DNA from: Rhizobiaceae bacterium
Lineage (GTDB): Bacteria; Pseudomonadota; Alphaproteobacteria; Rhizobiales; Rhizobiaceae
Direction: 5' to 3'
Length of the DNA: 64,000 bases
NCBI GenBank assembly: GCA_017644105.1
Contig: JAEPMD010000006.1
Coordinates: 62,001 to 126,000, forward strand
Positions 48,880 through 54,228 of the stretch are shown one piece after another (positions within the stretch are counted from its first letter, which is position 1; each line of letters begins with the position of its first letter). The notes below the pieces were generated by a model. The model was not told where the DNA came from. It saw nothing but the letters and a program-made list of their open reading frames with translations, and ran no database searches. The position numbers were made by a program, and so were the translations under genes.

Positions 48880-49782
48880 ATGAAGAAATTGATCATAACA
48901 CTGGCTTTGACGTTGCCATTATCGGCATGCTCGCTGACAACAGATAAAAGCCTGCTAACGAGTTCAACAAGAGCCATTGCACCGACTTTGGCAAGCGAAG
49001 TTGATCCCAATTATGCGGTCGCTTATCTACCAAGCGTGGCGGGGCCCATAACCTCGGTGCGTCAAACATCCGGCAATAATCGCGTTCATCAAACCATTTT
49101 ATATCCAAACTATGGGTATGGAGGTGGAGAAAACCAGATCATTGTTGATGTTGCACAAACATCAAGCAGTAAGGTTTATTATCAAGCCCCAACGCGTCGC
49201 GAAATTGTCAGTGAAATGAAGCGTTTTTTTCCGACAATGAAGATGACAATCGATCAAAATCCGGGCGAAAATTTACACGGGATTTATGGATATGCGTATG
49301 GCAAATCCAAGGTTGACGGTAACTGCATTTATGCCTGGCAGGTCATTCGAAATGTGACCCGAAAGGATCTGGTTGATCTGCAGAGAATACTACAGCCTAA
49401 ATATGCTTCAAAAGTCCGTTTAAGATATTGTCATCCCACAAAAACAACGGAGCAATTATTGGTTTTGATGGATGGTTTTCGCGTAAAAGAAGTCACATCC
49501 TCTTCCTTGGAAATTCTAAGATTTGCGGAAGGTGCGGGTTATTCAAAACCGGTCATTCCAAGGGTGGAGCCGTTCATTGCCAAGCAACCCGTTAAAGTGA
49601 AAACCAGATCCAAAGTGAAAACAACAAAGCGTGAAGCCGTCGTTGTACCTGAAGGTCCGCGGGTCCTGTTGCCAACAGAACTAGATGGGTCGGCACCCGT
49701 GATAAAGAAGAAGACGACGATCAAAGTGGCGGAGACTTTTATCGTCGATCCAAACGCACCAAAAATCCCACTGCCAAATTAA
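48880..49782 (+). CDS. bcsN: Cellulose biosynthesis lipoprotein BcsN
   Basis: 300 residues. A signal peptide with lipobox-like LSACS (residues 15-19) suggests a lipoprotein. The centre (about 50-225) contains VAYLPSVAGPITSVRQTSGN and RFCHPTK-like segments typical of BcsN, a protein found in alphaproteobacterial cellulose operons. The last 70 residues are Lys-rich and low in complexity. It lies four bases after the BcsK-like gene. The exact function of BcsN is not known. The operon ends with two hairpins. Confidence 0.85.
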   Translation: MKKLIITLALTLPLSACSLTTDKSLLTSSTRAIAPTLASEVDPNYAVAYLPSVAGPITSVRQTSGNNRVHQTILYPNYGYGGGENQIIVDVAQTSSSKVYYQAPTRREIVSEMKRFFPTMKMTIDQNPGENLHGIYGYAYGKSKVDGNCIYAWQVIRNVTRKDLVDLQRILQPKYASKVRLRYCHPTKTTEQLLVLMDGFRVKEVTSSSLEILRFAEGAGYSKPVIPRVEPFIAKQPVKVKTRSKVKTTKREAVVVPEGPRVLLPTELDGSAPVIKKKTTIKVAETFIVDPNAPKIPLPN

Positions 49783-49892: not shown

Positions 49893-50741
49893 CTAATGGG
49901 ATGAGGAAGAGCGCAATTGTCTAAGGCGAAATTGCTGGATGAAAAATGCGACGATGAATATGATTGTCAGCAGTAATACAATAGTTGGTGCCGGTGCACT
50001 ATCGATAAAGAAGCTGAGATAAATTCCTAGAAAACTCGATAATGCGGTTACCAATGTCGCAACGATCATCATCTTAGAAAATGTACGGGTGACTAGGAAT
50101 GCAATCGCTCCGGGCGTCACCAAAAGCGCGATGGATAAGATAATGCCGATGGCATCAAGACTTGCAACGATAATTGTAGATAAAGCGATCAGCAGTCCAT
50201 AGTGAAGTATATTCACCGCAAGCCCAATAGCTTGTGCATGTTGACCATCAAAGGAATGCAGCATGAGATCTTTTCGCTTTGCTAAAACGAAACCGCCGCA
50301 AAGCAGCGATAAAAATGCAGAGATTGAAATGTCCTGCCAATTTACCCCAAGCATATTGCCAAACAATATGTGATCAAGATGCACATCTGTTTGGATATTG
50401 ACATATAAAACAATGCCGAACCCGAACATGCCAGAGAACACAATACCCAGAACAGTATCTTCTTTAATACGAGAATTGTCTTTGATATAGCCAGTGGCGA
50501 TTGCGCAAAATAAGCCGGCTGCAAAAGCACCTATAGCAAGTGGAATTGATAGCATATAGGCGAGGACAATACCGGGAAGCACCGCGTGCGAAACAGCATC
50601 TCCCATCAGGGACCAACCTTTGAGCACCACCAGACATGACATAAGCGCCATAGGTATTGAGATGACCAGCGTGATGATGAAAGCTTTTTGCATGAATGAG
50701 AAGGCAAATGGCTCCGACAGGATTGCGAAAAAATCCATCAT
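49893..50741 (-). CDS. sitD: Mn/Fe ABC transporter permease SitD
   Basis: 282 residues, an ABC-3 family permease with about eight membrane helices. The family stretch GWSLMGDAVSHAVLPGIVLAY (about residues 47-67, cytosolic coupling region) and LVTPGAIAFLV (about 210-220) are clear. The start overlaps the end of sitC by four bases. Part of the sitABCD transporter that imports Mn2+ (or Fe2+). Confidence 0.92.
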   Translation of the reverse strand: MMDFFAILSEPFAFSFMQKAFIITLVISIPMALMSCLVVLKGWSLMGDAVSHAVLPGIVLAYMLSIPLAIGAFAAGLFCAIATGYIKDNSRIKEDTVLGIVFSGMFGFGIVLYVNIQTDVHLDHILFGNMLGVNWQDISISAFLSLLCGGFVLAKRKDLMLHSFDGQHAQAIGLAVNILHYGLLIALSTIIVASLDAIGIILSIALLVTPGAIAFLVTRTFSKMMIVATLVTALSSFLGIYLSFFIDSAPAPTIVLLLTIIFIVAFFIQQFRLRQLRSSSSH

Positions 50742-51613
50742 GATTGCACCATATCAGCATTATTCAGACTGTTTTTCTTAGCTTTTCGTCGCTGGTTTAA
50801 TATGCCGTGTTTCGGCGCGAATACCAGCGCGATCAAGAACAAACAGGTTTGCAACACGACAATGATTCCACCAGTTGCGCCATCAAGGAAGTAGCTGATA
50901 TATGCGCCGAAAAAACATGTCGTCGCGCCGATGATCGAGCTTATCGCGACAAGTCTGGGAAAACGATCTGTCAGCAGATAAGCGGTTGCGCCCGGAGTGA
51001 TCACCAGCGCGATGACGAGGAAAGCGCCAACTGTTTGTAGCGCTGCAACGGTTGAAGCACTTAATAATGTAAAAAACAAAACCTTGATCCAAAAAGGATC
51101 GATGCCAATGGCTTTTGCCTGATGTTCATCAAAAAACACCAGCATAATATCTTTCCATTTGAAAAAGAGAACAACCAGTGTCACGCCGCCAATCAGCCCC
51201 AATTGGATGGAATCATAGGTTGATATTGCTAATACATTGCCCAAAATTATTTTTTGAATGTCGATAGACGCGGGAGAGATGGAAATCATAAACAAGCCAA
51301 GCGCAAAAAAGGACGTAAAAATTATGCCGATTATGGCATCCTGCTTGAGCGTGGTTTGCTGATTTAAAAACATAATACCTGCGGCAGCTAATCCACCAGC
51401 AAGAAATGCACCCACCGAAAATGGCAATCCCAGCATATATGCGCCTGCAACACCGGGTACAATGGCGTGCGATAAGGCATCACCGATCAGGGACCAGCCT
51501 TTTAAAATGAGGTAAGAAGACAAAAACCCACAGACCAGTCCAACCAGCGCGCTGATCCAGATCGCATTGACCATATAACGATAGGTGAATGGTTCGAGGA
51601 GGAAGTCCATCAA
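50738..51613 (-). CDS. sitC: Mn/Fe ABC transporter permease SitC
   Basis: 291 residues, a second ABC-3 permease with the same family stretch [21 protein letters not shown] (about residues 41-60) and [11 protein letters not shown]. About eight membrane helices. It is paralogous to SitD, and the two probably form a heterodimer. Overlaps sitB by four bases and sitD by four bases. Confidence 0.92.
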
Positions 51614-52497
51614 TCTTCCCCCAATTTTTTGTCGATATTGGATTTGTGATCACTGGCTTCGCCGTAAATTACGAATGGACGTTCATCATCGGTAAGAACA
51701 GTAACCTGCCGGCTGTCATCATCATCATGCAGGCTTTCCCCACCAAGAATAAAGTGGCGTAACACGCCGCCAAATGCCCTCTCCAAATTCTCGTGGGTAA
51801 ACACATCTTCCGTCGAACCGGAAGCCAGAATTGTCTTATTTATGAGGACTGCGCGGTCACAAAATTCAGGCACACTGCCAAGATTGTGGGTAGAAACCAG
51901 TAAAACGCGACCTTCGTCACGAAGGGATTGTAAGAGTTCAATAATTTGAGCTTCGGTTTTTACATCCACACCGGTAAAGGGCTCATCTAGCAAAATGATC
52001 TGGCCTTCTTGGGCGAGCGCTCGGGCAAGGAATACCCGCTTCTTTTGCCCGCCAGAAAGTTCACCAATCTGGCGTTTGCGATAGTCAAGCATGCCAACAC
52101 GTTCAAGGGCCTGTGCGACCATTTCATGATCTTTTTGCTTTGCGGTGCGAAGCCAATTCATGTGGCCATACCGCCCCATCATCACGACGTCTTCAACAAG
52201 GACAGGGAAATTCCAATCCACATCCTCGCTTTGAGGAACATAGGCAACTAGGTTTTGTGACAATGCTTTCTTGGCGCTCTGACCTAATATTTCAATCTGG
52301 CCGGTAGAAAGAGCAACAAATCCCATAATGGATTTAAATAATGTGGATTTGCCGCTGCCATTAATGCCAACAAGGGCAGTAATAGACCCTTCAGGCACCT
52401 CAAAAGACGCACCTCTCAACGCAGTGTTACCGTTACGATATGTAACGGTAACATCTTCGACTTTAAGGCCAATATGGTTTTGGAATTCCTTATTCAT
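51610..52497 (-). CDS. sitB: Mn/Fe ABC transporter ATP-binding protein SitB
   Basis: 295 residues. ABC ATPase motifs: Walker [10 protein letters not shown] (about residues 43-51), signature [16 protein letters not shown] (about 146-161) and Walker [12 protein letters not shown] (about 165-177). A C-terminal extension of about 50 residues with DDDDSRQ lies beyond the usual end. It powers the SitC/SitD permease. The start overlaps the end of sitA by eight bases. Confidence 0.94.
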
Positions 52498-53377
52498 TAC
52501 CCTTGGTTAAACCTTCCGCAATCGTATCGACAGTGACCTTCAATAAATCCAGATAAGTGGGTACAGGTCCATCTGCCTCGCTCAGCGAGTCTACATATAA
52601 AACACCGCCATATATAGCATCTGTCTCATTTGCAATGGTAACTGCTGGATCTGCTGAAACGGTACTTTCTGAGAAAACCGCTGGAATGTTAAATTCACGT
52701 ACTGTGTCAATCACTTTGCGAACTTGCTGAGGCGTGCCTTGTTGATCGGCATTAATTGGCCAAATGAACAATTCTTTTAGGCCAAAATCTCGGGCTAGAT
52801 AGCTAAATGCGCCTTCGCTCGTCACAAGCCATCGCTTGTCTTCGTCAATGGCTTCAATAGACGCTCTGATCGGTGCTGAAATTGCGCGTAGTTTCTCGAT
52901 ATAAATCATGGAATTTGCATTATAATAGTCAGCATTGTCCGGATCATACTGGGCGAGCGCATCGGTAATGTTTTGAACATAGATGACGCCATCTTCTGGA
53001 GACATCCAAGCATGCGGGTTGGGCTTGCCATTATATAGACCTTCACCGATATTCATAGGTTCAATGCCCTCAGTGATGAGGATGCCGGGAACATCGGATA
53101 GATTTTGGAAAAATTTCTCAAACCATAGTTCCAGGTTCAAACCGTTCCATAAAATGAGATCAGCGCTTTGGGCCCGACGAATATCTCCAGGCGTAGGTTG
53201 GTAATTATGTATCTCAGCGCCAGGACGGGTAATGGACACAACCTCCGCCCTATCTCCAGCTACATTCTTTGCCATATCGGCAAATACTGTGAATGTTGTG
53301 ACAACTTTTAACTTATCCGCGGATGCAGATCCGAGGGTAGCCATCGTCAAAACGAGTGCAATAATGATCGACTTCAT
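52490..53377 (-). CDS. sitA: Manganese-binding periplasmic protein SitA
   Basis: 295 residues, a cluster A-I metal-binding lipoprotein-like/periplasmic protein with signal peptide (residues 1-20, cleavage after ASA). The likely ligands are His57 ([10 protein letters not shown]), His122 (NPHAW), Glu188 ([10 protein letters not shown]) and Asp263 (YVDSLS). Glu at the third place, instead of His, is typical of Mn/Fe rather than Zn binders. It delivers the metal to SitCD. Its promoter is flanked by two palindromic operators. Confidence 0.93.
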
Positions 53378-53391
53378 AGTCAGGTTTACTC

Positions 53392-53416
53392 CTAGTTGCG
53401 ATTAATTCGCAACTAG
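53392..53416. promoter_or_regulatory. sitA operator 1 (Fur-family-like palindrome)
   Basis: Inverted repeat with arms CTAGTTGCGATT and ATTCGCAACTAG around one base (one mismatch). It starts directly after the presumed -10 of sitA and runs into its SD (AGGAG on the - strand). Probably a Mur/Fur-type metal repressor site; the protein is not identified. Confidence 0.65.
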
Positions 53417-53444
53417 GTATGGACTAGATTCAAACGCTCGTCAA
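53416..53444 (-). promoter_or_regulatory. Putative sitA promoter
   Basis: On the - strand, -35 TTGACG (53444-53439), a 17-base spacer, -10 CATACC (53421-53416, weak). It lies exactly between the two palindromes, which supports a metal-repressed promoter. Confidence 0.5.
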
Positions 53445-53445
53445 G

Positions 53446-53470
53446 CTTGTTGCGAATAATTCGCAACAAG
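53446..53470. promoter_or_regulatory. sitA operator 2 (Fur-family-like palindrome)
   Basis: A perfect 25-base inverted repeat, CTTGTTGCGAAT and ATTCGCAACAAG around a single A. The inner TTGCGAAT-A-ATTCGCAA has the 7-1-7 layout usual for Fur/Mur/Zur-type sites. It lies just upstream of the -35 of sitA and about 90 bp before rpe. Same core as operator 1, with centres 54 bases apart. Confidence 0.7.
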
Positions 53471-53562
53471 AAATAATGCCGGACAATGAATCGAGGAACT
53501 TGACGTGGCCAACACAACAACGTAACCGCCCTATTATGATATAGTTCCTTGGGAGAAACTTT

Positions 53563-54228
53563 ATGGGTTCTGATGTTATAATTGCGCCATCTGTCCTATC
53601 TGCAGATTTTTCAAAATTAGGGGATGAGATTGAAAGCGTTGTTAATGCAGGAGCAGATTGGATCCATCTTGATGTCATGGATGGTCACTTCGTGCCAAAT
53701 ATCACATTTGGACCACCGATCATAAAAGCTGTTCGTGACCGGACGGACAAAGTTTTTGATTGTCACCTGATGATCGAGCCGTGTGATCCTTTCTTGAATG
53801 CATTTGCAGATGCGGGTTGCGACATCATCACCGTTCATGCCGAGGCGACAAAACACCTAGATCGCTCGCTTCAGGCGATCCGTGCTTTGGGAAAAAAAGC
53901 CGGTGTTTCGCTCAATCCTTCAACGCCTGAGCATGTTATTGAATATGTGCTCGACCGTCTTGATCTTATTCTTATTATGACCGTGAATCCCGGTTTTGGC
54001 GGCCAAGCATTTATTGATGCTATGGTCGATAAAGTTGCACGTGTGAAAGCAATGATTGGTGACAGACCTATTGATATTGAAATCGATGGTGGCGTTTCAC
54101 CCAAAACCACGCCGCAGCTGGTAAGAGCAGGCGCAAATGTTTTGGTGGCTGGCTCTGCCGTCTTTAAAGGTGGTAGCGAAGAGCACTATCGAAACAATAT
54201 CACTGCAATTCGAGAGGCTGCCGTTTAA
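53563..54228 (+). CDS. rpe: Ribulose-phosphate 3-epimerase
   Basis: 221 residues, normal. It interconverts ribulose 5-phosphate and xylulose 5-phosphate. TIM-barrel motifs: [12 protein letters not shown] (about 9-20), [15 protein letters not shown] (about 31-45), [19 protein letters not shown] (about 141-152) and [10 protein letters not shown] (about 172-181); metal-binding His and Asp residues are in place. SD GGGAGA just upstream. The stop overlaps the stop of the convergent lrp-type gene by four bases, inside a hairpin. Confidence 0.96.

Follow-up and report, generated by a model that had tools for sequence, protein, structure and literature searches.

Two near-identical palindromes lie on either side of the promoter of a predicted metal-uptake operon in a Rhizobiaceae genome, and they raise the question of which protein reads them and to which signal it responds. 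The operon occupies part of a stretch of 64,000 bases (the window) and comprises four minus-strand genes: sitA (52490-53377; Pfam ZnuA, 280.5 bits), encoding a metal ABC substrate-binding protein and so named both here and in the preliminary description of this DNA; sitB (51610-52497), a manganese/iron ABC transporter ATP-binding protein (NF011630, 455.4 bits against a cut-off of 393); and the ABC-3 permease genes sitC (50738-51613; Pfam ABC-3, 266.6 bits) and sitD (49893-50741; Pfam ABC-3, 257.4 bits). Because the best NCBIfam matches of SitA, all of them Mn/Fe-binding proteins, fall under their curated cut-offs, the word "manganese" for sitABCD derives from the ATPase together with resemblance to relatives, to which SitA is 62-94% identical in a first set of genomes (29 other loci) and 63-85% identical in a second (the best 80 loci among the matches listed). 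A gene with a BcsN cellulose-biosynthesis domain (48880-49782; Pfam PF17038, 125.0 bits) converges on sitD. At the other end, sitA, which starts at 53377, diverges from the plus-strand gene rpe (53563-54228; TIGR01163, 281.2 bits, cut-off 212.6), and the two share a 185-nt intergenic region.

The upstream box within this region is a perfect 25-nt palindrome of 12-1-12 form, CTTGTTGCGAATAATTCGCAACAAG (53446-53470), with the 17-nt core TTGCGAATAATTCGCAA at 53450-53466. The downstream box, CTAGTTGCGATTAATTCGCAACTAG (53392-53416; core at 53396-53412), is a 25-nt palindrome with one mismatched pair, and its symmetric flank extends to 53391-53417. Both had been reported in the preliminary description, as a perfect and a one-mismatch 25-base repeat within 53392-53470, and we recovered both at exactly those positions. 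They have the core TTGCGA(A/T)T-A-ATTCGCAA in common, and both precede sitABCD, with 54 bp between their centres. No other 25-nt stretch of the window is palindromic with one mismatch or none; in 30 dinucleotide shuffles of the same bases, the number of such stretches averaged 0.17 (largest number 2) and none was perfect.

The pair frames a predicted minus-strand promoter consisting of the -35 hexamer TTGACG (53439-53444) and the -10 hexamer CATACC (53416-53421) with a spacer of 17 nt. The upstream box lies one base upstream of the -35, and the downstream box shares the last base of the -10 hexamer and spans the inferred transcription start, so the bracketing of these two hexamers that had been described before holds in the minus-strand sequence. 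When the window is aligned with its three congeneric genomes in our search, TTGACG and the 17-nt spacer are invariant, while the -10 appears as CATACC, CATATC, GATACC or GATAGC, with ATA alone identical in all four. CATACC is a weak match to TATAAT, and a simple promoter scan left this promoter out of its calls because the -10 lacks the final T that the scan requires. The scan called two plus-strand sites instead, against 0.6 expected, and one of them (53450-53477) overlaps the upstream palindrome. Given this promoter-like site and the shared intergenic region, rpe might feel the binding of a regulator, such as the Mur protein considered below, at the upstream box.

We propose that the two palindromes serve as Mur boxes at the promoter of a manganese-uptake operon, where Mur dimers would occupy both sites and occlude RNA polymerase such that manganese sets the expression of sitABCD; we put the probability of this reading at about 0.93. 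At sufficient Mn2+, both boxes would be held by Mur dimers loaded with Mn. Since the boxes abut the -35 and the -10 with its expected start, occupancy would exclude polymerase and sitABCD would be off; when Mn2+ drops, apo-Mur would depart and the importer would be produced. From the behaviour of relatives we infer four elements of this scheme, namely binding by Mur, manganese as the signal, occlusion and the presence of two dimers.

The case for a conserved operator comes from the DNA upstream of sitA in other bacteria. We read a consensus, TTGCRAATNATTYGCAA (an 8-1-8 box of the type TTGC(A/G)AAT-N-ATT(T/C)GCAA), by eye from relatives' upstream sequences, and the sequences scored against it are partly the same DNA; the two boxes of the window score 16/16 and 15/16. 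A first set comprised 61 genomes including the window's own, with a SitA match in 58, and the 400 nt upstream of the best 30 loci (own locus included) were examined. A box scoring at least 12/16 is present at 29 of these 30 loci and one scoring at least 13/16 at 27, whereas L052 has none. Both boxes are present in each of the three congeneric genomes, 54, 54 and 55 bp apart. A second set consisted of the best 80 named loci among the matches listed, with 300 nt upstream and with class assigned from record titles. Here 57 of 59 alphaproteobacterial sitA loci carry a box of at least 13/16, 46 one of at least 14 and 25 one of at least 15, against means of 0.5, 0.2 and 0 in 40 dinucleotide shuffles (largest number 2, at the threshold of 13). 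The two misses are L124, for which 122 nt of upstream DNA are available, and L129. None of the 21 beta- and gammaproteobacterial loci among the same best 80 reaches 13/16 within 300 nt. The two sets are not independent, since at least two loci of the second (L058 and L068) are apparently, judging from the length of their contigs and their place on them, DNA of the first.

These counts change how the core should be viewed. The preliminary description found it unfamiliar and suggested a lineage-specific manganese box, an idea that is not supported and that we rejected in view of the occurrence of the same box at 57 of 59 alphaproteobacterial sitA loci (best 80 among the matches listed). In boxes scoring at least 14 in that set, the half-site TTGCGA occurs 28 times and TTGCAA 54 times, and a natural footprinted Fur operator with TTGCGA appears in the available text of PMC4506495; by these counts, the alphaproteobacterial Mur/Fur box commonly has TTGCGA as a half-site variant. 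Fur- and Mur-boxes had been proposed in a computational paper of 2006, according to the available text of PMC6956336, and that paper is cited by PMC5343134 and PMC2908626 as well.

The genome searched (3.93 Mb, 93 contigs, 99.88% complete) contains three FUR-family matches, which are Mur-like, Irr and Zur-like. The Mur-like protein, encoded on contig C22 at 103616-103972, has its best PDB match in 5fd5/5fd6, which we take to be R. leguminosarum Mur, and is identical to 5fd5 at 105 of 138 residues. It passes no NCBIfam cut-off, its best match being Fur (108.3 bits, cut-off 146), and its gene is accompanied by frames resembling plsC, rimI and tsaB (names assigned here). This similarity and these gene neighbours point to a Mur orthologue, and Mur is the most likely identity of the Fur homologue at C22:103616. 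The second protein (C22, 69731-70075) passes two Irr family cut-offs, and the third (C4, 48031-48381) matches the Zur family best, at 88.8 bits against a cut-off of 167, and adjoins a ZnuB-like permease. The genome has no match to PF02742, the single Pfam model used for the DtxR/MntR family (which matches in 11 of 14 known genomes), and on this basis we rejected control by MntR. Nor is there a match to the single Nramp model, PF01566, which matches in 7 of 14 genomes.

With a conserved box and a Mur-like gene in place, sequence comparison gives good support to a Fur-family operator of the Mur type at sitA. What stands of the preliminary description is its view that the layout fits a dimeric Fur-family (Mur-like) repressor; what does not stand is the new core.

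Searching the 3.93 Mb with the consensus and up to two mismatches returned nine places, against four for a reversed-pattern control. The sitA pair has 0 and 1 mismatches and the other seven places have two. Copies with at most one mismatch occur at sitA alone, and the scatter away from metal genes that the preliminary description had named as a sign against a metal box is not seen among such strict copies. Five of the seven two-mismatch sites are inside reading frames of at least 110 aa. Of the remaining two, L141 is outside such frames and adjoins an IrrE-type regulator gene, and L011 (contig C2) precedes a ferritin-like gene by about 134 bp. We provisionally treat all seven as chance matches. 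The window's own core with three mismatches allowed gives 35 matches on one strand and 45 on the other, where the reversed pattern gives 23 and 24, a mild excess that leaves room for weak further Mur sites; four two-mismatch matches to this core that are absent from the consensus search (L004, L005, L006 and L007) are inside reading frames. These results make the genome annotation firmer, with sitABCD as the sole putative Mur target with strict boxes.

How the box might be read can be considered from a solved homologue. In the available text of PMC4506495, the natural footprint of Magnetospirillum Fur with Mn2+ is TTAATCGCAACTCATTCGCAATTGC, whose half-sites read TTGCGA along one strand and TCGCAA from the other end; the Mn-Fur/DNA crystal was obtained on a symmetrised TTAATTGCAAATCATTTGCAATTGC containing TTGCAAATCATTTGCAA, with one dimer per site. 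PDB entries 4raz/4rb1/4rb3 and 4ray/4rb0/4rb2 are presumably this protein, since one of their two sequences has the paper's three substitutions. The base-reading Tyr-Arg pair of the solved complex is conserved in the genome's Mur-like protein, and the minor-groove Lys15 of Magnetospirillum Fur is replaced by Arg, as it also is in 5fd5. According to the same source (PMC4506495), Arg57 contacts G7 and Tyr56 contacts two thymines. We would place G7 at box position 3 and the thymines opposite positions 6 and 7. At the 57 box-bearing loci among the matches listed, the highest-scoring boxes, whose letter counts lean to the consensus through this choice, all have G at position 3 and A at position 6, and 49 have A at position 7; at position 5, A occurs 39 times and G 15 times. 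Such a mapping of contacts would explain the interchangeability of TTGCAA and TTGCGA, and the cross-species comparison thus suggests why position 5 tolerates both A and G.

A second box scoring at least 12 lies within 70 bp of the first at 31 of the 57 box-bearing loci (best 80 among the matches listed). The spacing is 49-55 bp at 18 of the 57, several of which are close relatives and make the counts non-independent, and 29-30 bp at six (L067, L081, L111, L116, L123 and L136), four of them Rhodobacteraceae-like. In 100 flank shuffles the mean number of second boxes was 1.5 (largest 5), and at 49-55 bp it was 0.28 (largest 2). A distance of 54 bp corresponds to about 5.1 turns of 10.5 bp. Since 49-55 bp is about five helical turns, it is conceivable, though we consider it doubtful, that the paired layout is itself selected and that two Mur dimers bound to the same side of the helix cooperate, or bend or loop the promoter, beyond mere blocking. 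The comparison yields a usable box consensus and a recurrent two-box spacing that is testable.

Among other explanations, the one that survives best keeps the protein and the boxes and changes the signal, such that an iron-responsive Fur, and hence iron instead of manganese, would set sitA expression. The genome's protein has Fur as its best NCBIfam match, under the cut-off; its Magnetospirillum homologue is an iron regulator that binds a box of this type at an iron transporter, though it was footprinted with Mn2+ (PMC4506495, available text); and Rhodobacter Fur/Mur affects iron genes too (PMC6956336, available text). We nonetheless regard iron control as improbable. The sole strict boxes of the genome are at an importer with a manganese/iron-family ATPase, and the genome has Irr, where a review, in its available text, assigns global iron control in Alphaproteobacteria to Irr and RirA. 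Rhizobium 3841, moreover, keeps sitA and mntH on whatever the manganese supply once mur is mutated, as the accessible part of PMC5575495 describes. Mur with manganese as its signal remains the reading that we prefer.

A different binder is more improbable still. The boxes could belong to the Irr or the Zur-like protein, both of which are encoded in this genome. A perfect 17-nt palindrome, TTTAGAATAATTCTAAA, lies about 60 bp upstream of the ferritin-like gene on contig C2 (L011:1428-1444); only 4 of its 17 positions depart from the upstream box, and in sequence it resembles an Irr element. Irr elements have TTTAGAA-type half-sites, which are absent from the sitA boxes, where TTGCGA is read instead. 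At the four differing positions (3, 4, 14 and 15), the sitA boxes among the matches listed keep the Mur letters G in 57, C in 55, G in 40 (T in 15) and C in 54 of 57, position 14 being the least conserved of the four. Irr of R. sphaeroides, moreover, did not bind a sitA promoter fragment, according to the available text of PMC3413700. As for Zur, the best Mur-box scores in the zur-znu stretches are 12/16 (L143) and 13/16 (L027, within an adjoining reading frame), and the znu genes have another palindrome between them. On the grounds of Irr non-binding in R. sphaeroides, the box letters and the weak znu scores, we rejected Irr and Zur as main binders. The znu palindrome, TGATGTAATATAATAACATCA (L143:1913-1933, contig C4), is of 9-3-9 form with one mismatch, lies between a ZnuA-like gene and divergent znu frames and is a candidate Zur operator; the frame overlapping the ZnuA-like gene includes a run of unknown bases.

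That these strong inverted repeats are RNA hairpins or mobile repeat units instead of protein sites can practically be discarded, as the upstream palindrome is outside the inferred transcript, the search for terminator-like sites at the locus found none (our reason for rejecting a terminator or hairpin), the Mur consensus matches nowhere else in the genome at one mismatch or fewer, and conservation tracks the 17-nt core across alphaproteobacterial sitA genes.

The sitA promoter with its pair of Mur boxes thus appears to be an already-described kind of manganese switch, of which it would be an ordinary, clean and symmetric example, and a claim of novelty is not supported. Rhizobium (leguminosarum/johnstonii) 3841 has, like the genome studied here, sitABCD, a homologous regulator and two boxes 54 bp apart, though its boxes are weaker and less symmetric, scoring 13 and 14 of 16 with TTGCAA half-sites where those of the window score 16 and 15 with TTGCGA. 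The sit operon of R. leguminosarum reportedly carries two footprinted Mur sites. In Rhizobium 3841, which we take to be the strain Rlv3841 of PMC5575495, the available text of that paper describes a manganese response of sitA that operates through Mur and is lost in the mur mutant.

Rhodobacter sphaeroides sitA likewise has an almost perfect Mur box in its promoter and, in Rhodobacter itself, shows approximately 50-fold Fur/Mur-dependent induction on manganese limitation; its box lies between the -35 and the -10, whereas two boxes bracket the promoter here (PMC6956336, available text). The Fur-feoAB1 operator of Magnetospirillum gryphiswaldense resembles the sitA boxes in its 8-1-8 form, its TTGCGA half-sites and its homologous protein but differs in that the target is the iron transporter feoAB1, there is one main protected region and the protein is an iron regulator (PMC4506495, available text). 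The E. coli-type Fur box, GATAATGATAATCATTATC, as given in the available text of PMC3788343, belongs to the same family and has the same dyad architecture, with outer bases that differ from those of the alphaproteobacterial box.
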